From Comamonadaceae bacterium (GTDB lineage: Bacteria > Pseudomonadota > Gammaproteobacteria > Burkholderiales > Burkholderiaceae_C), in contig CANBYM010000023.1 in the NCBI GenBank assembly GCA_947373605.1, positions 1-36,218 on the forward strand: 36,218 nucleotides of DNA, in the 5' to 3' direction. This document shows positions 4,867 to 31,900 of the stretch, piece after piece. The first letter of the stretch is position 1. Every line of letters starts with the position of its first letter. The notes under the pieces are model-generated. The model did not search any database. It saw only the letters and a program-made list of their open reading frames with translations, and was not told the DNA's origin. The translations under genes and the position numbers were made by a program.

Positions 4867-5127
4867 TTACGAAAGATGTTTTCCAGCCAAGCCAGTCAGT
4901 TCAAACATCGTGACTTCCGGCTTCCCCAGCACAGCCTTCAGTTTTGCATCACAGAGAATGTTGCGCTTGTTTGCGGGATTTTGCAAGTTGTTGGCCTTGA
5001 TGTATTCCCAAAGCTTTTTAATCACTTCTGTGCGGGGCAGTGGCGCAGCGCCAACGACAGCAGCCAACTCTGCGCTGGGCTTCAAGGCTTTCATGAATGC
5101 GGATTCTTTTTTCGGAGCGGTTGACAT
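4867..5127 (-). CDS. SWIB/MDM2-domain protein
   Basis: PLPRTEVIKKLWEYIKANNLQNPANKRNILCDAKLKAVLGKPEVTMFELTGLAGKHL. Confidence 0.9.
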   Translation of the reverse strand: MSTAPKKESAFMKALKPSAELAAVVGAAPLPRTEVIKKLWEYIKANNLQNPANKRNILCDAKLKAVLGKPEVTMFELTGLAGKHLS

Positions 5128-10159: not shown

Positions 10160-12523
10160 GTGAGCGCTGAGAACACAACATCGAAGTGGGACTGCGACCT
10201 GCTGATAGCAGGCTCCGGTGCGGGCGCCCTGTCCACCGCCGTCACGGCCGGACATCTGGGCCTTAAAGTCATCGTGGTCGAAAAAGATCCACAACTCGGC
10301 GGCACCACTGCATGGTCGGGGGGCTGGATGTGGATACCGCGCAACCCCTTGGCCTTGCAGGCCGGAATCGCGGAGCCGATTGAAGCGCCGTTGACCTACT
10401 TGCGCAACGAACTGGGCGCGCAATTTGACGAGGCCCGCGCCACCGCTTTCCTGAATAACGGGCCGCGCATGGTGCGGTTTTTTCAGGAGCACACAGCCCT
10501 GCAATTCATTGACGGCAACGCCATTCCCGACTTTCACGGGCGCACCGAACACGCATCCACCGGTGGGCGATCGGTTTGTGCCGCGCCGTTTGACGGCAAG
10601 CGGTTGGGGCGCCACATACGGCAACTCAAAGAACCGCTGCGCGAGACCACTTTTAAAGGCATGGGCATTGCGTCGGGCGCAGACATCCGGCATTTTTTCA
10701 ATGCCATGCATTCGTGGAAATCGTTCATTTATGTCACACGGCGAGTGGCGCGCCATGTGATGGATCTGGCACTGCACGGCCGCGGCATGCATCTGGTCAA
10801 TGGCAATGCGCTGGTGGCTGCCTTGCTGAAGTCTGCACTGGACGCGGGCGCAGACGTCCGCGTCAATTGCCCTGCGGTGCGCCTCCTTGTTGAACAGGAT
10901 GCAGTGCGCGGCGCAGTAGTGCTGATCGACGGCAAAGAAGTCACCTTGCGCGCACGCCGCGGCGTAGTGCTGTCAACCGGCGGATTCCCGCACGACGAAC
11001 AACGCAAGCGCGAGCTGCTGCCGCATGACCCGACCGGCACGTTGCACTTTTCTGCCGCATCGCGCGGCAACACGGGCGACGGCCTGCGCCTGGGCGAATC
11101 CGCAGGCGGTGTGGTGGCGCGCGATCTGAAGCAGGCCGCGGCTCTCGCACCGGTGTCACTGGTGCCGCGCGCCGATGGCAGCGTCGCCCACTTCCCGCAT
11201 TTGATTGAACGCGGCAAACCGGGCCTAATTGCGGTGACCCGCTTTGGCAAGCGCTTTACAAACGAGGCCGACTCTTACCACGACTTCATGCAAGGCCTAC
11301 TGGCCGCATTGCCGGCGGGTGAGCCGGTACAGGCCTGGCTGGTAGTGGACCACCGCTTTATCCGCCGCTGGGGGCTAGGCGCAGTCAAGCCGGCGCCGGT
11401 ACCTCTGCAAAGCTTGCTGGCCAACGGCTACCTGCAACGCGGCAACACCATTGCCGAACTGGCAACACATTGCGGCATTGAAGCCGCTGCGCTGCAAAAC
11501 ACCATAGCGCGCTACAAAACACAGTCTGACATCGGCTACGACGGAGATTTTGGCAAAGGCCAGACACCCTACAACCGCATGCAAGGCGATGCCACCCACG
11601 ATGGCCGCAACCCTTGCATGGCGGCGCTGCAGGACGGCCCGTACTATGCGGTGCGCGTTGTGGCAGGCAGTCTGGGCACGTTTGCCGGTTTGCGCTGCAA
11701 CGCCGATGCGCAAGTATTGAATGCCGACGGTGAACCCATTGACGGGCTGTACGCGGGCGGCAACGACCTCACCAGTGTGATGGGCGGCAACTATCCCAGC
11801 GGTGGCATTACGCTGGGTCCGGCCATGACCTTCGGATTTCTGGCCGCACACCACGCGGCGCGCACCTCACCGGACCAATCATTTTTCAAAAGGACCTCAT
11901 CCATGCACTACGAACTCGCCACCATGACCCTGCCCTTCGGCACCTCCGCAGCTGCGGCTGCCAATGTGCAGGCCTTTGCCGCGCGGGGACTGGGGGAGCT
12001 GCTGGGATGCTGGTTTACCGACATTGGAGTGCTCAATCAGATGATCGTGCTGCGCGGCTTTGACGACTTGGCCACGCTGCAGGCCGAGCGCACACGCACC
12101 CAGCAAAACGCCAGCCCTTTTGGCTGCGGCGAAATTTTTCAGAGTCTGGAGCAGCACAGCTTTGAAGGATTTCCCTGGATGAAGCCGGTGCGCCCCAGCG
12201 CAGAGAGCGGTATCAACGGCCCGGTCTATGAAATCCGCACCTACGGCATCAAGCCCGGCGGCGTTCAAGCCACGATCGACCTGTGGGAGCAGGCGATGCC
12301 GGCGCGTTCCAAAGTCTCGCCCTGCGTGGTGGCCATGGTCGCGCTGGACGGACCGCTGCGCTTTACCAACATCTGGGCTTACCCCTCGCTGGATGCGCGC
12401 AGTAAAGCACGTGCCGATTCGGTGGCGCAAGGCATCTGGCCACCCAAGGGCGGTCCGGCCCACCTGACCACCACTATGGTGTCAACAATTGCCATGCCCA
12501 CTGCGGTATCGCCGTTGAAATAA
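10160..12523 (+). CDS. KstD-like FAD dehydrogenase (flavoprotein B) fused to a C-terminal NIPSNAP-type region
   Basis: DLLIAGSGAGALSTAVTAGHLGLKVIVVEKDPQLGGTTAWS; KRFTNEADSYH; NYPSGGITLGPAMTFGFLAAHHAA; then from M582 HYELATMTLPFGTS...GPVYEIRTYGIKPGGVQATIDLWEQAMPAR; GTG start. Confidence 0.85.
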   Translation: MSAENTTSKWDCDLLIAGSGAGALSTAVTAGHLGLKVIVVEKDPQLGGTTAWSGGWMWIPRNPLALQAGIAEPIEAPLTYLRNELGAQFDEARATAFLNNGPRMVRFFQEHTALQFIDGNAIPDFHGRTEHASTGGRSVCAAPFDGKRLGRHIRQLKEPLRETTFKGMGIASGADIRHFFNAMHSWKSFIYVTRRVARHVMDLALHGRGMHLVNGNALVAALLKSALDAGADVRVNCPAVRLLVEQDAVRGAVVLIDGKEVTLRARRGVVLSTGGFPHDEQRKRELLPHDPTGTLHFSAASRGNTGDGLRLGESAGGVVARDLKQAAALAPVSLVPRADGSVAHFPHLIERGKPGLIAVTRFGKRFTNEADSYHDFMQGLLAALPAGEPVQAWLVVDHRFIRRWGLGAVKPAPVPLQSLLANGYLQRGNTIAELATHCGIEAAALQNTIARYKTQSDIGYDGDFGKGQTPYNRMQGDATHDGRNPCMAALQDGPYYAVRVVAGSLGTFAGLRCNADAQVLNADGEPIDGLYAGGNDLTSVMGGNYPSGGITLGPAMTFGFLAAHHAARTSPDQSFFKRTSSMHYELATMTLPFGTSAAAAANVQAFAARGLGELLGCWFTDIGVLNQMIVLRGFDDLATLQAERTRTQQNASPFGCGEIFQSLEQHSFEGFPWMKPVRPSAESGINGPVYEIRTYGIKPGGVQATIDLWEQAMPARSKVSPCVVAMVALDGPLRFTNIWAYPSLDARSKARADSVAQGIWPPKGGPAHLTTTMVSTIAMPTAVSPLK

Positions 12524-21537: not shown

Positions 21538-22389
21538 TCAGGTGCGGCTGCCGGCAAAGCCTGCGGGCTTCCAGATCAGCACGGCCACCATCAATACGAA
21601 TGGCAGAAGAACGGCGACGTCGGGCAGATACACCGCGCCCAGCGCCTGGACCATGCCCAACACAATGGCAGCAACAAAGGCGCCGGCCAGCGAGCCCAGA
21701 CCTCCGACTACCACGACCACAAACGAGTCGATAATCACGTCGCTGCTCATGGATGGCGAGAGCGACAAAAACGGTGCTGCCACTACCCCCGCCAGACCGG
21801 CAAGTGCCGTACCAAGACCCACCACGCCGGCGCTGAGTACATCGGTATTGACGCCTTGCATGGCAGTCGTTACAGGGTCGGTGCTGGCCGCGCGCACAAG
21901 CAATCCGACCTTTGAATAGCGCAGCCACAAACTCAGACCAAGCGCTACCAATGCACCCACAACAATCACCGCAATGCGGTAGGCGGGCACAGGAGTGCCC
22001 AGAATGTCGAGCGAGGTATTGAGAGCTAACGGAGCAGCGACCGACAAATTGCTTTTTCCCCACACGCTTTGCACAAAATCCTCAATCACCAACAGCAGGC
22101 CGAAGGTGACCAGCACCACGCTCAAGGGATCGCGATCCTGCAATAGCCTGAAGCCATAGCGGTCCAGCAACACGCCCAGTAAGGCCATCACTGCCGGCGC
22201 TGCAATCAGTGCGACCCAGAAGTTACTTTGCAGCGCAATCGAATAGCCCAGATACGCACCCAGCATGTAGAGCGAACCGTGCGCGAAATTGACTACGCGG
22301 CGCAGGCCGTAAATCAGTGCCAGGCCCGAGCACATCACAATAAGCAGGGCACCGTACACCAGCCCGTTGAACAAGTTGATGATCAGCAT
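21538..22389 (-). CDS. LivH-like ABC transporter permease
   Basis: NGLVYGALLIVMCSGLALIYGLRRVVNFAHGSLYMLGAYLGY; GGLGSLAGAFVAAIVLG. Confidence 0.92.
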   Translation of the reverse strand: MLIINLFNGLVYGALLIVMCSGLALIYGLRRVVNFAHGSLYMLGAYLGYSIALQSNFWVALIAAPAVMALLGVLLDRYGFRLLQDRDPLSVVLVTFGLLLVIEDFVQSVWGKSNLSVAAPLALNTSLDILGTPVPAYRIAVIVVGALVALGLSLWLRYSKVGLLVRAASTDPVTTAMQGVNTDVLSAGVVGLGTALAGLAGVVAAPFLSLSPSMSSDVIIDSFVVVVVGGLGSLAGAFVAAIVLGMVQALGAVYLPDVAVLLPFVLMVAVLIWKPAGFAGSRT

Positions 22390-22733
22390 ATTCCGGCTCC
22401 GCGGGTAAAGAATGGCATGTCCACCGCCTTGATCAGGCGTGTTTCCTGCGCAGTAATCAGGTGCGCTGAAGCGCTCAAATAAGCAGCAAAGTCCGGGTGC
22501 GTGTCGCGGGCTTTGCAGCGGCGCTCGTAGTCCGCTAGATTGTCATAAGCCCAGAGATGCACAAACTGGTTTTGCGGACCCACCAGGCTCGTGTAAAAGG
22601 CCAACGGGTGGCCCAGGGTGTCCATCAGGACCGGCATGGCCAGTCGATTAAACACCTCCAGAAACTCGGGCATCCTGCGCAGGGTGATGTTGTAAACGCG
22701 ATGGTCTACCAGTGGCTTGGTCAGGTAGTTCAT
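22383..22733 (-). CDS. NIPSNAP-family protein
   Basis: VYNITLRRMPEFLEVFNRLAMPVLMDTLGHPLAFYTSLVGPQNQFVHLWAYDNLADYERRCKARDTHPDFAAYL. Confidence 0.85.
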   Translation of the reverse strand: MNYLTKPLVDHRVYNITLRRMPEFLEVFNRLAMPVLMDTLGHPLAFYTSLVGPQNQFVHLWAYDNLADYERRCKARDTHPDFAAYLSASAHLITAQETRLIKAVDMPFFTRGAGIC

Positions 22734-24445
22734 GCGGCTAGTCCTGCCTTGTCCGCAATGTGGTTGGCCGTGACAAACCCGAAGGTCATGTTCGGGCCGT
22801 GGGTGATGCCCGCTGCCGGGTAGTTGCCGCCCATGATGCTGGCCCGATCGTTGCCCACGGCGTACAGCCCGGCTATCTTCGTGCCATCGTCTTTGAGCAC
22901 TTCACCCGCCACGCTGGTCTCTATCCCGTCAAAGGTACCCAGATCACCCATGATGACCTTGACCGCATAGAACGGGCCGTGCTGCACCGGTGCCACGCAG
23001 GGGTTGGGCGCATTGGCGGGGTCCGCCAGATAGCGATTGAAAGTAGTGGAGCCCCGTCCGAACTCGGTGTCTTCACCGCGGACTGCGCCCACATTGAAGT
23101 CACGCACTGTTTGCTCCAGTGCAACCGGATCAATGCCTGCATTGCCAGCCAGTTCGGCCAGCGTGTTTCCTTTGATCAGATAGCCGTTGCGCAAGAAGCG
23201 GCCTATCGGCATGGGAGCCGGTTTGACAAAACCGATGCCGTATTTCGCCAGCGCGTCCTTGTCACAAACCAGCCACATGGCTGTGTCCTTCTGACCTTCG
23301 CAGGCGCGGATTAAGGCAGCGCCCACGTCGTGGTAGGAATTGCTCTCGTTTGTGAATCGCTTGCCGTTTTTGAGCACACCGATCATGCCGGGCTTGTAGC
23401 GATCCAGCAGATGCGGGAACACACCGGTTTCGCCCTTGCCATAGTCCACGCGGGACACCGGCATCCATGCGGCAGCATCCTTGAAACGAATCTCTATTTT
23501 GCCGCCCACCGATTCGGCCATGGTGACGCCATCCCCGGTGTTGCTGACCGGCGTAGGCGACAAATGTTCACCGCCACGCTTCAGATGCGGATAGGCCTTG
23601 GCAATGCGTTTGACGTCGTGCGGAAATCCGCCGCAGGCCAACACCACGCCGTGGCGCGCGGTGATGCGCCGCTCGCCACCATTGCCACCCGAAGCACCTA
23701 CACGAACGCCCGTAGCAGCGCCGTCGTTCATCACAAGGCTCAGCACCGGGCTGTCGGTAAAGATAGGAATCCCCAAGTCCAGTGCCGACTTGGCCAGTCG
23801 CGCAGCCAGTGCGTTGCCGCTGGTTACATTGACTCCACGGCGGTACAGGACCAATTCTTTGATGTGCGTAACCAGTCGCTTGGCCACATACACAAACGAG
23901 GTCAGCGACTTGGTGGCCTGAAAGAAATGCTTGAGGTCGGCATTGGACGAGTTGAACATCATGCCGATAAAGGTGATGGTCTTAAGCGGCGGCTTGAGGC
24001 GCTGCATGTCCTTTCCCAACTCCCGGATGTCGTAGGGCGCAGCCAATATAGAGCGGCCTATATCGACACCACCGGCCACCGTGGGGTGGTAGTCCGGGTA
24101 CAGCGTGGGCACGAATTTCATGGCAGTCTCGCGCTCAAAAAACTCCAACATCTTCGGGCCGTTTTCAATGAATGCATCCACCGCTGCGGCGTCGAAGTAG
24201 CTGCCGGTTTCCTGCTGCATGTAGGTACGAACCGCCTCGCGCGTATCCGCGGGATTTTGCTTGCGGCCATGGAGGTTGAGCGGTATCCACAACACGCCTC
24301 CGGAGAGCGCCGTGGTGCCACCGAATACCGGCTCCTTCTCCAGCACCACCACGTCAAGCCCGCGCTTTTTGGCGGTTATGGCAGCGGCGAGTCCGGCGGC
24401 ACCGGAGCCGACCACAACGAGATCACATTCAAAGTTTTGCGACAT
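22730..24445 (-). CDS. FAD-dependent oxidoreductase, KstD-like (flavoprotein C)
   Basis: DLVVVGSGAAGLAAAITAKKRGLDVVVLEKEPVFGGTTALS; KRFTNESNSYH; NYPAAGITHGPNMTFGFVTANH; 4-nt overlap with the downstream NIPSNAP gene. Confidence 0.9.
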   Translation of the reverse strand: MSQNFECDLVVVGSGAAGLAAAITAKKRGLDVVVLEKEPVFGGTTALSGGVLWIPLNLHGRKQNPADTREAVRTYMQQETGSYFDAAAVDAFIENGPKMLEFFERETAMKFVPTLYPDYHPTVAGGVDIGRSILAAPYDIRELGKDMQRLKPPLKTITFIGMMFNSSNADLKHFFQATKSLTSFVYVAKRLVTHIKELVLYRRGVNVTSGNALAARLAKSALDLGIPIFTDSPVLSLVMNDGAATGVRVGASGGNGGERRITARHGVVLACGGFPHDVKRIAKAYPHLKRGGEHLSPTPVSNTGDGVTMAESVGGKIEIRFKDAAAWMPVSRVDYGKGETGVFPHLLDRYKPGMIGVLKNGKRFTNESNSYHDVGAALIRACEGQKDTAMWLVCDKDALAKYGIGFVKPAPMPIGRFLRNGYLIKGNTLAELAGNAGIDPVALEQTVRDFNVGAVRGEDTEFGRGSTTFNRYLADPANAPNPCVAPVQHGPFYAVKVIMGDLGTFDGIETSVAGEVLKDDGTKIAGLYAVGNDRASIMGGNYPAAGITHGPNMTFGFVTANHIADKAGLAA

Positions 24446-26290: not shown

Positions 26291-26327
26291 GCACCCGCCA
26301 TTCAAGCAATGACAGATGTAAATGCTT

Positions 26328-26966
26328 TCAGGTGGCGTCGGGCTGCACCATTGGTGCAGCGAGCCTAAAAACATCCAATGCATTGCACTTCGCCTCCACT
26401 GCCATGATCAGCGGCCAGCGATTCAGATCCACCTTGAAGCGGCGCGCACTTTCGATTTGCGGTATCAGGTACGCATCGGCAATGGTCGGCATATTGCCGA
26501 AGCTGAAATCGGCGCGCCGCGTGTCGGCTGCCAACAGGGCTTCATAAGAATCAAAACCATCACCGATCCACTTACCACACCACTGGTTGATGGCGGCATC
26601 GTCAGCACCAAAACCGGCGCGCAGCGTGTCCAGAATCCGCTTGTTGTTCACCGGGTGGATGTCGCAACCGACGATGGCCGCTAGGGCCCGCACATGGGCA
26701 CGGTCGTTTACGTCCGCGGGCAACAACGCGGGCATGGGATAGCGCTCCTCAAGCCATTCGATGATGGCAACCGATTGCGTCAGCACCCGGTCGCCATCCA
26801 CCAGCGCCGGCACCAGGCCTTGCGGGTTCAGTGCTTTGAAGGCCGCACCCAGATGCTCGTTCTTGCGCAAGTCGACGGCCATGTAGTCGTAACTCAGACC
26901 CTTGAGGTTAAGCACTATCCGAAGGCGGTGCGATGTACCACTGCGAAAAAAGTTGTAAAGCTTCAT
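26328..26966 (-). CDS. nagL: Maleylpyruvate isomerase (zeta-class GST-like)
   Basis: MKLYNFFRSGTSHRLRIVLNLKGLSYDY, LNPQGLVPALVDGDRVLTQSVAIIEWLEERYP; last gene of a nag-type gene order. Confidence 0.85.
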   Translation of the reverse strand: MKLYNFFRSGTSHRLRIVLNLKGLSYDYMAVDLRKNEHLGAAFKALNPQGLVPALVDGDRVLTQSVAIIEWLEERYPMPALLPADVNDRAHVRALAAIVGCDIHPVNNKRILDTLRAGFGADDAAINQWCGKWIGDGFDSYEALLAADTRRADFSFGNMPTIADAYLIPQIESARRFKVDLNRWPLIMAVEAKCNALDVFRLAAPMVQPDAT

Positions 26967-26975
26967 TGCGTGTGC

Positions 26976-27677
26976 CTACTCGGGTGCGCCAATATTCAAA
27001 GCTACTTCGGCCACACCCGCCACGCGGCCGGTGATTTGGTCGCCGGCGACCACCGGACCCACGCCTTCGGGAGTGCCGGTGTAAATCAAATCGCCCGGTT
27101 GCAGGTGGTAGAAAAGCGAGAGATCCGCAATGATTTCACGCACATTCCAGATCAGCTTGTCCACATTGGACGATTGTTTCGTCTGGCCGTTCAATTCTAA
27201 AGCGATGGCGCCGCTGTCAATCACCACACCTTGCATGGGCACGATCTCCGAACATACGGAAGACTGTTCCACATCCTTGCCAAGGTCCCAGGGTCGTCCC
27301 TTGTCGCGGGCAACCAGCTGCAAATCGCGGCGTGTCATGTCCAGCCCCGCCGCGTAGCCATAAATCACACTGTGTGCGTCTTCGGCTTTGACACGAAAGC
27401 CTGCCTTGCCAATGGCAACGACCATCTCCATCTCAAAATGGTAGTTGCTCGTCTCGGGTGGATAGGCCACGGTTGCACCCGACGCCGTCAGCGTCTGCGG
27501 TGCCTTGGTGAAGTAAAACGGACGCTCTACCGATTTATCGACCGGGCGCCCCATCTCGACGGCGTGGGCGTGGTAATTGCGACCAACAAAGAAGGGCCGA
27601 TTGATGGGAAAGCGGGTGTCCGAGCCACGGATGCCCAAGGACATGGCGGGTGGGGGGCTAAACAAGTATTGGGGCAT
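26976..27677 (-). CDS. nagK: Fumarylpyruvate hydrolase (FAH family)
   Basis: FFVGRNYHAHAVEMGRPVDKSVERPFYFTKAPQTL, YHFEMEMVVAIGK, LIYTGTPEGVGPVVAGD. Confidence 0.87.
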   Translation of the reverse strand: MPQYLFSPPPAMSLGIRGSDTRFPINRPFFVGRNYHAHAVEMGRPVDKSVERPFYFTKAPQTLTASGATVAYPPETSNYHFEMEMVVAIGKAGFRVKAEDAHSVIYGYAAGLDMTRRDLQLVARDKGRPWDLGKDVEQSSVCSEIVPMQGVVIDSGAIALELNGQTKQSSNVDKLIWNVREIIADLSLFYHLQPGDLIYTGTPEGVGPVVAGDQITGRVAGVAEVALNIGAPE

Positions 27678-27716
27678 ATAAATGCTTTCTAATATAAATG
27701 TGGAAAGGGATGGGGC

Positions 27717-28772
27717 TCAACCCCGGTTCTCGTACACGCCCAACTTTCGATGCAGTGGCGCTTCATCGGCTACAAACAAAAATGCCGGCGTGCTGTCGGA
27801 GCGGTTTTTCAGCGTTACTGCTGTGTAGCCCGGAGCGCAGCAGGTGTCTGCCTCGACCATCGTGAAAGCAGTGGCTTCCACTTGCACATCGGTCTGCCCT
27901 TCGATCTGATGGAACACCTGCGCCGGTGAGCGCGCAGGCAGGCGCAGGGTCTCACCGGGACGCAACATGAGCGCATAAAAGCCCAGGATGTTTTCTACAT
28001 CCGCACCCGTCTCAGGATTGATATAAGTAACTTGCACCGCGTCCGGTCCGATTTGTTCCTCCGCCAGTGACAGCAATGCCGCCTTGGCTTCGACCCAGGG
28101 GTAGCGAAGCATGGGGTAGGCCTTGTTCGACCGTTGAGACACTTTGGTGGGTGCCACACCGCCGCGGGCATAGGACTTGAAACCCTGGCCGGTGGTGACA
28201 CTCTGGCTTGGGCCTTCCAGGTGGTAAGACGTTTCTGTGTAATAGACCAGCGGCAGATCCAGCACATCCAGCCAGATCACCGGCTCGGTGCCATCGTGGC
28301 CGTGTTCGTGCCACAAGCCTGTGGGCGTAAGAATCAGGTCACCGCGCTGCATCGGACACTTCTCGCCACCCACCAGCGTCCAGGCGCCCTCGCCCTCCAC
28401 CACCATGCGCACTGCATTGGGCGTGTGCCGATGCACCGGGGCCAGTTCGCCGGGCAACAGCAGCTGCATCCCCAGATACATGGCGGCACTCGCCTGCATA
28501 TTGGTGAGTCCATGACCCGGATTGGCCAGCACCAGCACACGGCGCTCCGCCTTCTCGATGGGTGTCAGTTCACCCGCCTGAATCAGCAACTCCCGTATCT
28601 GGCTATAGGGCCAATGCGTAGTCTGTGTCTTGCGCGTCGGGATATTGGGTGGCAACACGCCGCGCAGGCTGGGCCAAAGCGGAACCAGATTGCGCCGGGT
28701 GAGTAGGTCGCGGTAGTCCTGTGGCAGGTCTTCCAGGCGGCCCAGAGAGTCAAACCGATTGTTGTCTTCCAT
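27717..28772 (-). CDS. nagI: Gentisate 1,2-dioxygenase
   Basis: Cupin metal-site region APVHRHTPNAVRMVVEGEGAWTLVGGEKCPMQRGDLILTPTGLWHEHGHDGTEPVIWLDVLDLPLV. Confidence 0.92.
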   Translation of the reverse strand: MEDNNRFDSLGRLEDLPQDYRDLLTRRNLVPLWPSLRGVLPPNIPTRKTQTTHWPYSQIRELLIQAGELTPIEKAERRVLVLANPGHGLTNMQASAAMYLGMQLLLPGELAPVHRHTPNAVRMVVEGEGAWTLVGGEKCPMQRGDLILTPTGLWHEHGHDGTEPVIWLDVLDLPLVYYTETSYHLEGPSQSVTTGQGFKSYARGGVAPTKVSQRSNKAYPMLRYPWVEAKAALLSLAEEQIGPDAVQVTYINPETGADVENILGFYALMLRPGETLRLPARSPAQVFHQIEGQTDVQVEATAFTMVEADTCCAPGYTAVTLKNRSDSTPAFLFVADEAPLHRKLGVYENRG

Positions 28773-28790
28773 GATTTTCTCCAGATTGAT

Positions 28791-29105
28791 TCAGTCGAGC
28801 TTCAGCATCACGCGCATGTTCTCAATACGTACTGCATAGGTCTTGATGTTTTCGGTCAACGGCGCGCACAGGGCTTGTCCTGTGCACACATCAAACTTGC
28901 CCTGGTGCAAAGGACATTCGATTTCCCGACCCTCGAGGAATCCATCGCTCATGCGCGCATGTCCGTGGGTACAGACGTTGTCGCTGGCAAAGACTTCCCC
29001 CTCTACTTCGTACAGTGCAATTTCCTTTCCTCCCACTTGCACGCCGATCACATCGGCTTCGGGTACATCTTCACGTGCAGCGGCGTCCTGCCAGTTTTCA
29101 GCCAT
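28791..29105 (-). CDS. nagAb: Rieske [2Fe-2S] ferredoxin
   Basis: [32 protein letters not shown] (CxH...CxxH); start at [11 protein letters not shown]. Confidence 0.9.
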
Positions 29106-29116
29106 TTTCTTTTTCC

Positions 29117-29602
29117 TTAAATGGGATAAATGATGGAGTTGGCAATCATTTCGCTGTCGTATACACACAGACGGGACTGAAACTTCAAGCCCTCCGGTGT
29201 GCGCACGATCACATCGCGGTAATAGCCCACATTGAAGACGGTGGAGTCCCCGTCGTACTTGGTACGAATCACCGTGTAGTTAGCTTCCGAAGTGATGCGC
29301 TCACCGTATATGTCGCGTTCTACGGACACCACACGCGGCGTGCCAACAATATGTCGCTGGTAATAGGGGTCGTGGTACATCGTTTCTTTAACGCCGTACA
29401 CCCGGTCACGAATCATGTTCTTGCTCTCCAGCGCCAAGAGGCACAGCGGCAGCCCTTGGTCAAAGTTTTCGCGGGGTTGCAGACGGTAGGTGCCTTCTTC
29501 TACAAAGAACTCGGGCCATTTTTCCCACTCGGCGGAGTCGCAGACCATGGCGTAGTCGCTGTAGAGGTTGAGCAGTTCGAAGTAAGTCTTGAAGTCAATC
29601 AT
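29117..29602 (-). CDS. nagH: Salicylate 5-hydroxylase small (beta) subunit
   Basis: Ring-hydroxylating dioxygenase beta-subunit-like; lies between the alpha subunit and ferredoxin genes. Confidence 0.85.
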
Positions 29603-29604
29603 GT

Positions 29605-30867
29605 TTATTCCCCCATCACTTTGCGCCAGTAGTTGTACATGCCACGTATCAAGGTCTCTGTCACCATGTGATCGGCATCGCCAATGTCGTATCCGCCCAT
29701 CTCGATCACCGTACGGTGCGCCGGCTTTTGCTCAAAGCCTTGCTGCGACCATTCGATCACTTCACCATCATCGGCGGATACAAATCCGGCCGGGCCGAAC
29801 AGATTGGCCTGAATCAAACGGCGCTCGGTCATCGCGGGTGTGTCATCTGCAAAGCCGAAGTGCGTCCACACAAAGTCAAACGATCCATGGCCATTGGGTT
29901 GTATGTGGCGTGTTGATACGCTGTTGACCTGCTGCTGGATGATCACGCTGGGAAATATCGTGGTCATCACCGCGGTAGGGCCGCCCCACCAGTGCTCGGG
30001 CACGATGTCCAGCAGGCGCGGATCATTGACCTTCATCTGATCTTTAAAGCTGTCCACTCCGGAAACCACGTCGGCGTTTTTTCCACCTTGGCCACGTGTG
30101 GAGATCATGGCCGCGTGGCGGAAGTGTTCGTCCATCTTCAACTCGGACTTGTTATCTGCGCGCCACAAGCCAAAGGTGGAGAACCAGGTGTGCAGCAGGC
30201 CGGGATGGTACGGGTCCTTGATGTTTTCCTGCATCAGCTTCCAGTTGCCCGGAATGCGCTGACGACGGTATCCAAGAATCTGCAGCTTGCGACCATCAAA
30301 TACGCGATCAAAGTATTTCAAGATAGTCGGGCCAAGAAACTCTTCAAAGGGTTCAACGTCATGATCAAAGGATGCGAACACAACACCCCCACGCACTGCG
30401 ACCTTCAATTTGGTGAGCCCGTGGTCGGCCACCTTAAAGTCTTTGGGCATGCCTCCGTTCACTTTTCCCTCTTGCTTGACGCCGCGGATAAAAGGCACGC
30501 CCTGCAGGTCCCCCTTCAGGCTGTAGTTCCATTGGTGGTACGGACAAAAGAAATCCTTGGCGTGTCCATTGCGCTCGCGGCAAAAGCGCATACCGCGGTG
30601 GGCGCACACGTTTTCCACCACATTCACATGGCCCTCAGGATCGCGCACCATAACTACAGAACGCTCGCCCACCACCGTGCGCCGGAAGTCCCCCGCATTG
30701 GGAATCTCTGCCTCCAACCCAACGTAGCACCAATGCTTGTTATAAAAAAGGCGGTCCAGTTCCTTCTTGTACAAGTCCTCGCGGGTATAGGCCCAAAAGG
30801 GTACGCGGCTTGTACCATCACCCGGCCAAGTAGGGCTCTGGGGAAATACCGAATTCGTTTCATTCAT
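29605..30867 (-). CDS. nagG: Salicylate 5-hydroxylase large (alpha) subunit
   Basis: Rieske [57 protein letters not shown] non-haem Fe region; NagG-like over its length from memory. Confidence 0.88.
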
Positions 30868-30913
30868 TGCGTGTCTCCTTAGGTTGCTCAGTTTTCAAAA
30901 AATGCAGTGAACA

Positions 30914-31900
30914 CTAGATGCCACTGGGATAAAAGGCATCGGCGTGGACATGGCTGGGCTCTACACCCATGCGGGTTACGAGCAAGTTGAGGGCGTCAAC
31001 CATGGCCGGTGCGCCACACAGATAAGCGCGCCAACCCGCCAGATTGCCCAAGTCCTTTTCAATGGCGTCTGTGACCAGCCCGCTTTGCTGGCCCGCACCG
31101 GCTGCCCCCGTGGCGACGACGATGCGGACTTTTACATTCGGGTTCGCGGCGGCCAATGCCTGTAGCCTCTCTGCGTCATACACATCCTGTGCACTGCGAA
31201 CTCCGAAATACAGGTGAATAGGGTTCTGCATACCCGCCGCCAATGCGCCGCGGATGATGGATAGCACCGGAGCCAATCCCGTGCCGCCGCCCACGCAGAG
31301 CATGGGACCCGTATGTTTTTTACGCAGGTAAGCAGTACCCAGTGGGCCGCTGATGCGCAGCGCAGCACCCACCTGCAATTCATCAAAAATGAATGCGGTG
31401 ACGCGGCCGTCAGGCACCCGGCGAATCTGGAACTCCCATTCGCCGTCATCGTGCAATCCGGCCATGGAGTAGGGACGGATGTGTTCCGGAGTGAACTGAA
31501 CCGTTGCATACTGCCCGGGACTGAATTCAATCGTCTTGGCTAACTTGACTCGAATGCGGCGGATGTCATGCGTTGCTGCTTCAATGGCAGTGACCGTCGC
31601 TTTCACAATGCGCGCGGTGTGCACCACGACCTCGCCCACATCGGGCAATTCGATACTGCAGTTTTCGGTCAGCACTGACTGACAGGCTAATACGTAGTCG
31701 TCTTTTTCACATTGGGGACGGCCTGCCTCAGGACCGCTGTTGATGACATGGCCAGACACCACACGGCAGCGGCAGGTGCCGCATCGCCCCGACATACAAC
31801 TGTAGGAAATCGGCAGCTGGTTGGCTCTGAGCACGTCCAGCAGATTACTTCCGCTATCCACGTTCAGACGCACGTTGAGTGGTTCTACGACGAGTTCCAT
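30914..31900 (-). CDS. nagAa: Ferredoxin reductase component with N-terminal plant-type [2Fe-2S] domain
   Basis: [18 protein letters not shown]...LACQS; FAD/NAD domain [23 protein letters not shown]. Confidence 0.9.

Follow-up and report, generated by a model that had tools for sequence, protein, structure and literature searches.

A fused flavoprotein-NIPSNAP gene of Comamonadaceae with a conserved internal start that probably yields a second, free NIPSNAP protein

Among the closest described systems is SctQ/HrcQ (YscQ, SpaO) of type III secretion, whose gene gives both the full-length protein and its separate C-terminal domain, the latter started at an internal ATG preceded by a Shine-Dalgarno (SD) sequence (PMC8553256); in Pseudomonas syringae pv. 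tomato, the SctQ parts are listed as the separate proteins HrcQa and HrcQb (PMC8553256). The C-terminal part of the Rpn toxins is separately translated as the intragenic RpnS, which inhibits the toxin, and Cas11 is translated from within large-subunit cas genes, for example in type I-D (PMC10327210). In the library of papers that we searched, none dealt with a flavoprotein paired with or fused to NIPSNAP.

We analysed a fused gene found in a stretch of 36,218 nucleotides from a Comamonadaceae bacterium (the window), whose genome assembly is fragmented (331 contigs, contamination about 6%). The ORF begins with GTG and runs without a stop through the junction of its two domains (Table 1). Pfam placed FAD_binding_2 at residues 13-552 of the 787-aa protein (3.5e-92) and NIPSNAP (PF07978) in two stretches (8.8e-26; 96.2 bits, above the gathering cut-off of 22.3), both contained in the C-terminal ~206 aa. 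The NCBIfam entry PRK06134 (NF004789, FAD-dependent oxidoreductase) matched residues 4-573 with 854.7 bits, above its cut-off of 747, and because this match stops at residue 573 the flavoprotein ends where the earlier note had placed its terminus. The NCBIfam equivalogs for 3-ketosteroid delta1-dehydrogenase scored 433 and 388 bits, below their cut-offs of 789 and 788, respectively. The nearest solved structure to the flavoprotein part was that of 3-oxosteroid 1-dehydrogenase (PDB 7P18), matched over the full length, and we take the resemblance to 3-ketosteroid delta1-dehydrogenase to be one of working only. A structure model of the fusion had a mean pLDDT of 63.7, with most of the NIPSNAP part <50; this low-confidence model bears only on residues 574-584, which appear in it as a poorly ordered linker.

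Table 1. Features of the fused gene and of the paralogous pair, in window coordinates
Feature	Position	Strand	Remarks
Fused ORF, FAD-dependent oxidoreductase (3-ketosteroid-delta1-dehydrogenase-like) + C-terminal tandem NIPSNAP protein	10160-12523	+	787 aa
Flavoprotein part, 572 codons	10160-11875	+	domain matches, 7P18 match
Linker QSFFKRTSS	11876-11902	+	sequence and length vary among relatives, always by whole codons; low model confidence
Shine-Dalgarno AAAAGGA	11888-11894	+	AAAGGA pairs with anti-SD 5'-CCUCCUUUCU-3'
Internal ATG (M582)	11903-11905	+	homolog of the codon that starts the free NIPSNAP gene in unfused relatives; no variation among fused loci
Predicted nested gene for a free NIPSNAP protein of 206 aa with two NIPSNAP domains	11903-12523	+	domain matches; homologous free-standing genes in unfused relatives
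Paralog C flavoprotein	22733-24445	-	followed by its own NIPSNAP gene
Single-domain NIPSNAP gene behind paralog C	22386-22733	-	ATG overlaps flavoprotein stop (ATGA)

The junction reads CAA(11876) TCA TTT TTC AAA AGG ACC TCA TCC ATG(11903), with 8 nt between AAAAGGA and the ATG. An in-frame start codon with an SD at working distance is thus located inside a longer ORF, and the earlier note, which had described a fused ORF with an embedded SD and ATG, was correct as to the ORF, the motif, its spacing and both domains. The 16S tail of the window's own genome is absent from the incomplete assembly and those of relatives were therefore used; the 16S 3' end of same-genus and same-family genomes is GGATCACCTCCTTTCT, hence the anti-SD CCUCCUUUCU, for which we presumed the exact mature 3' end. 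The duplex energy at the window's junction was -5.9 kcal/mol. Equal or stronger pairing was found at 6.6% of the codon positions and at 4 of the 18 other in-frame ATGs of the ORF, and the SD signal ranked within this ORF alone is only moderate; its significance comes from its conservation across 26 distinct fused loci and not from its rank in a single ORF.

Genomes of GTDB species were scanned with the NIPSNAP part, which gave 80 loci, and more loci came from samples of the family, genus and order. The carriers of the long fused gene were freshwater relatives of Rhodoferax and Limnohabitans; cultured carriers are Rhodoferax lacus IMCC26218 and Limnohabitans sp. Jir61 and Rim11. Comparison of the loci showed a shared gene order, with a divergent flavoprotein A and shikimate-dehydrogenase-like gene and then IclR, flavoprotein B, NIPSNAP and a TIM-barrel protein, often with acyl-CoA dehydrogenase and CoA-transferase genes behind them. 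Since the surroundings are syntenic, the loci are orthologous and the domain pairings did not come about by chance. The NIPSNAP gene was separate in about half of the loci and the frame was continuous in the others; separate NIPSNAP genes mostly began 12-127 nt after the flavoprotein stop or overlapped the flavoprotein gene by about 22-25 nt. No further fused form was found in 399 genomes of the order, where the window's ORF was the sole long one. The locus was patchy in the genus, with a match in 9 of 100 genomes including the window's (one of the nine weak and partial), and L111 alone among the other same-genus matches had the fused form.

Two fused groups were present on a tree of 103 rows from which the linker was left out. 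Group 1 comprised 27 rows, the window and 26 further syntenic Comamonadaceae loci (SH-aLRT 100), and group 2 comprised 19 Limnohabitans-type loci (support 96). All members of group 1 have the ORF open and in frame, with a stop in none, and the fusion is old and common to this whole clade. The earlier note had suggested a recent loss of a TAA stop at 11876, CAA being one transition away from TAA. The ortholog comparison it called for does not support this, because the clade is stop-free and the homologous codon in the group-1 codon alignment encodes His in 19 of 26 loci (CAT 13, CAC 6), CAA occurring in the window only; a recent stop loss, or a sequencing error, in the window's genome alone is therefore extremely improbable. 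An assembly error behind the fusion as such is excluded, because many independent genomes carry the fusion. The distance from flavoprotein to ATG was 66-84 nt in group 1 compared with mostly 95-150 nt in unfused relatives, which suggests that deletion of a stop-bearing spacer would be a simpler fit for the origin than one transition. At least two changes of state are required on the tree, forced by well-supported branches, and the unfused L066 and Malikia loci adjoin group 2. The fusion of group 2 thus probably arose independently, two origins being likely and not proven. A single origin, later undone in Malikia and L066, would bear only on the origin of the fusion and would be compatible with our preferred explanation; one fused clade was not rejected by the AU test (p 0.167), but the tree holding the fused loci together was 42 log units worse and the groups differ in their linkers (...FFKRTSP-M in group 1 and ...EYPITTTSTDTSKENT-M in group 2), in NIPSNAP length (206 vs 208/217 aa) and in the downstream TIM-barrel gene, and we consider a single origin unlikely.

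The linkers fell into four length classes in each group, stop-free and differing by whole codons only; the flavoprotein-NIPSNAP distances of the unfused loci were even over the three phases (24/23/22). The in-frame state partly defines which loci are called fused, and the weight of this result rests on there being no out-of-frame row in either tree-defined clade, which points to selection on the fused protein itself. In two group-2 loci, L038 (4830-4990) and L040 (near 4941-4966), the linkers contained REP-like palindromes of ~120 nt, inserted in frame and stop-free.

AGGA was located 5-8 nt upstream of the ATG in all 26 distinct group-1 loci, despite linker indels. The linker Arg codon was AGG in 23 of 23 group-1 loci, a codon that makes up 3.5% of the Arg codons elsewhere in the same ORFs, and the linker Lys codon was AAA in 21 of 21. 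Over the group-1 tree, whose branches sum to 3.5 substitutions/site, both columns had 0 synonymous steps, compared with 4-14 for the 37 other conserved Arg columns and 1-8 for the other Lys columns. L016 and L022 (NQGKT) and L026 (NKGHT) have other residues in place of KRT and still have AAGGA 6 nt before the ATG, while L006 lost the linker Lys and kept AGGA. The SD and the start are therefore conserved at the nucleotide level beyond the protein, and this codon-level conservation led us to reject a chance SD. Two group-1 ORFs had 10-11 non-linker AGG codons each, about half of all such codons in the group; judging from the order of a per-ORF list, these probably correspond to L016 and L022, which are AT-richer and evolve fast.

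The synonymous-constraint scans of the whole fused ORF showed that the top window begins one codon before the ATG in group 1 (776 windows) and three codons after it in group 2 (793 windows). The first codons past the junction ATG were constrained too, with the same signature at the genuine NIPSNAP 5' ends of unfused relatives. The mean duplex energy was -5.8 kcal/mol in group 1, -4.4 in group 2, -5.3 at the real starts of unfused orthologs and about -2.1 at an average codon position, and the SD of the group-1 junction equals in strength that of the real NIPSNAP start of unfused relatives. The site of group 2 is a weaker GAAAG, which pairs with CUUUC of the anti-SD, and was lost in L032 and L034 (-2.2 and -1.7, respectively). 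Folding of the junction mRNA was -2.6 kcal/mol compared with an ORF mean of -16 to -18, which places it among the ~1-2% least structured windows in every fused ORF. Between residue 567 and Y584, M582 alone was invariant in 36 fused proteins of both groups; because 14 other group-1 columns likewise retain Met well, its invariance could partly reflect NIPSNAP structure.

We put at roughly four in five the probability that a flavoprotein gene and a NIPSNAP gene, which followed it in an operon, were joined into a single reading frame in the clade ancestor, and that selection has since maintained the NIPSNAP gene's ribosome-binding site and ATG within the coding sequence. Ribosomes initiating at 10160 would make a flavoprotein-NIPSNAP fusion of ~84 kDa, and others initiating at 11903 would make a free NIPSNAP protein of ~22 kDa. 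Comparison of the fused loci, which is evidence at the level of sequence, supports well the earlier suggestion of two products from one ORF, and both predicted products very probably exist in cells. NIPSNAP-like proteins belong to the dimeric alpha-beta folds, and free copies may therefore, speculatively, pair with the tethered domain. In that case the surplus copies could serve an enzyme of alicyclic or aromatic-ring catabolism.

If only the fused protein were made, the SD and the ATG would be relics yet to decay. All fused ORFs are open and frame-kept, as expected if the fusion itself is what is selected, and the ~22 kDa product is a predicted one. However, relics should decay like other synonymous sites, and neighbouring linker columns vary freely (8-14 codon steps in several of them) whereas the AGG column shows no synonymous change, AGGA is universal in group 1 and the motif is retained despite the altered residues of L016, L022 and L026; we regard relics as improbable. 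The position of the motif exactly at the domain boundary would also suit an elongation pause that aids folding of the two domains rather than initiation, but a pause requires neither an ATG that follows within 5-8 nt, nor a start region free of structure, nor synonymous constraint past the ATG, all three of which were seen, and this explanation is less probable still. With selection for initiation at the internal ATG as the preferred explanation, we lean slightly towards the view that fusion occurred twice with the internal start selectively retained both times, so that tethered plus free NIPSNAP would be the favoured state.

The window contains a catabolic cluster (Rieske oxygenase, cupin, FAA hydrolase, GST, SDRs and a branched-chain-type ABC transporter). 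This setting and the likeness of the flavoprotein to 3-ketosteroid dehydrogenases, below their equivalog cut-offs, make a role in ring dehydrogenation of an alicyclic substrate plausible. By domain content, the region 26300-31900 on the reverse strand is a gentisate-type ring-cleavage cluster (Rieske oxygenase and reductase, cupin, FAA hydrolase and GST). Since paralog C has a NIPSNAP gene of its own, the flavoprotein-NIPSNAP pairing recurs in the window, there unfused and probably translationally coupled. No NIPSNAP match was found behind paralog A in the two ORFs tested.

Annotation would show a single protein at this locus, where two are probably made. The series of unfused, overlapping and fused loci with an inner start offers a natural record of the origin of a gene within a gene, and the rare-codon test is a simple means of finding more of them. 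The poorly understood bacterial NIPSNAP proteins also gain a firm partner, a flavoenzyme that plausibly dehydrogenates rings. If there were indeed two fusions with the start retained twice, this would point to a general route for the birth of nested genes, in which two genes of an operon fuse while selection continues to act on the ribosome-binding site of the second.

Comparison with described proteins showed that the flavoprotein part is like PRK06134 and the 3-ketosteroid dehydrogenases and differs by its C-terminal NIPSNAP fusion, and that the two NIPSNAP stretches are like the NIPSNAP family (PDB 1VQS, 2AP6) and differ in being tandem, ~206 aa long and fused to a flavoprotein. SctQ/HrcQ and Rpn/RpnS are parallels in working and not relatives. 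SctQ/HrcQ is the nearest, one gene giving a full-length protein and a separately started C-terminal part, as predicted here; the proteins are unrelated, however, and here a catabolic flavoenzyme is joined to a whole protein of free-standing type by a fusion mapped on a tree in two clades. Rpn/RpnS is likewise a gene within a gene with a separately translated C-terminal part, as predicted here, but RpnS inhibits a toxin and the flavoprotein-NIPSNAP locus shows no sign of inhibition. Cas11 is comparable in that an internal start provides additional copies of a C-terminal domain, which act as a subunit; the same may hold for NIPSNAP, but the proteins are different.
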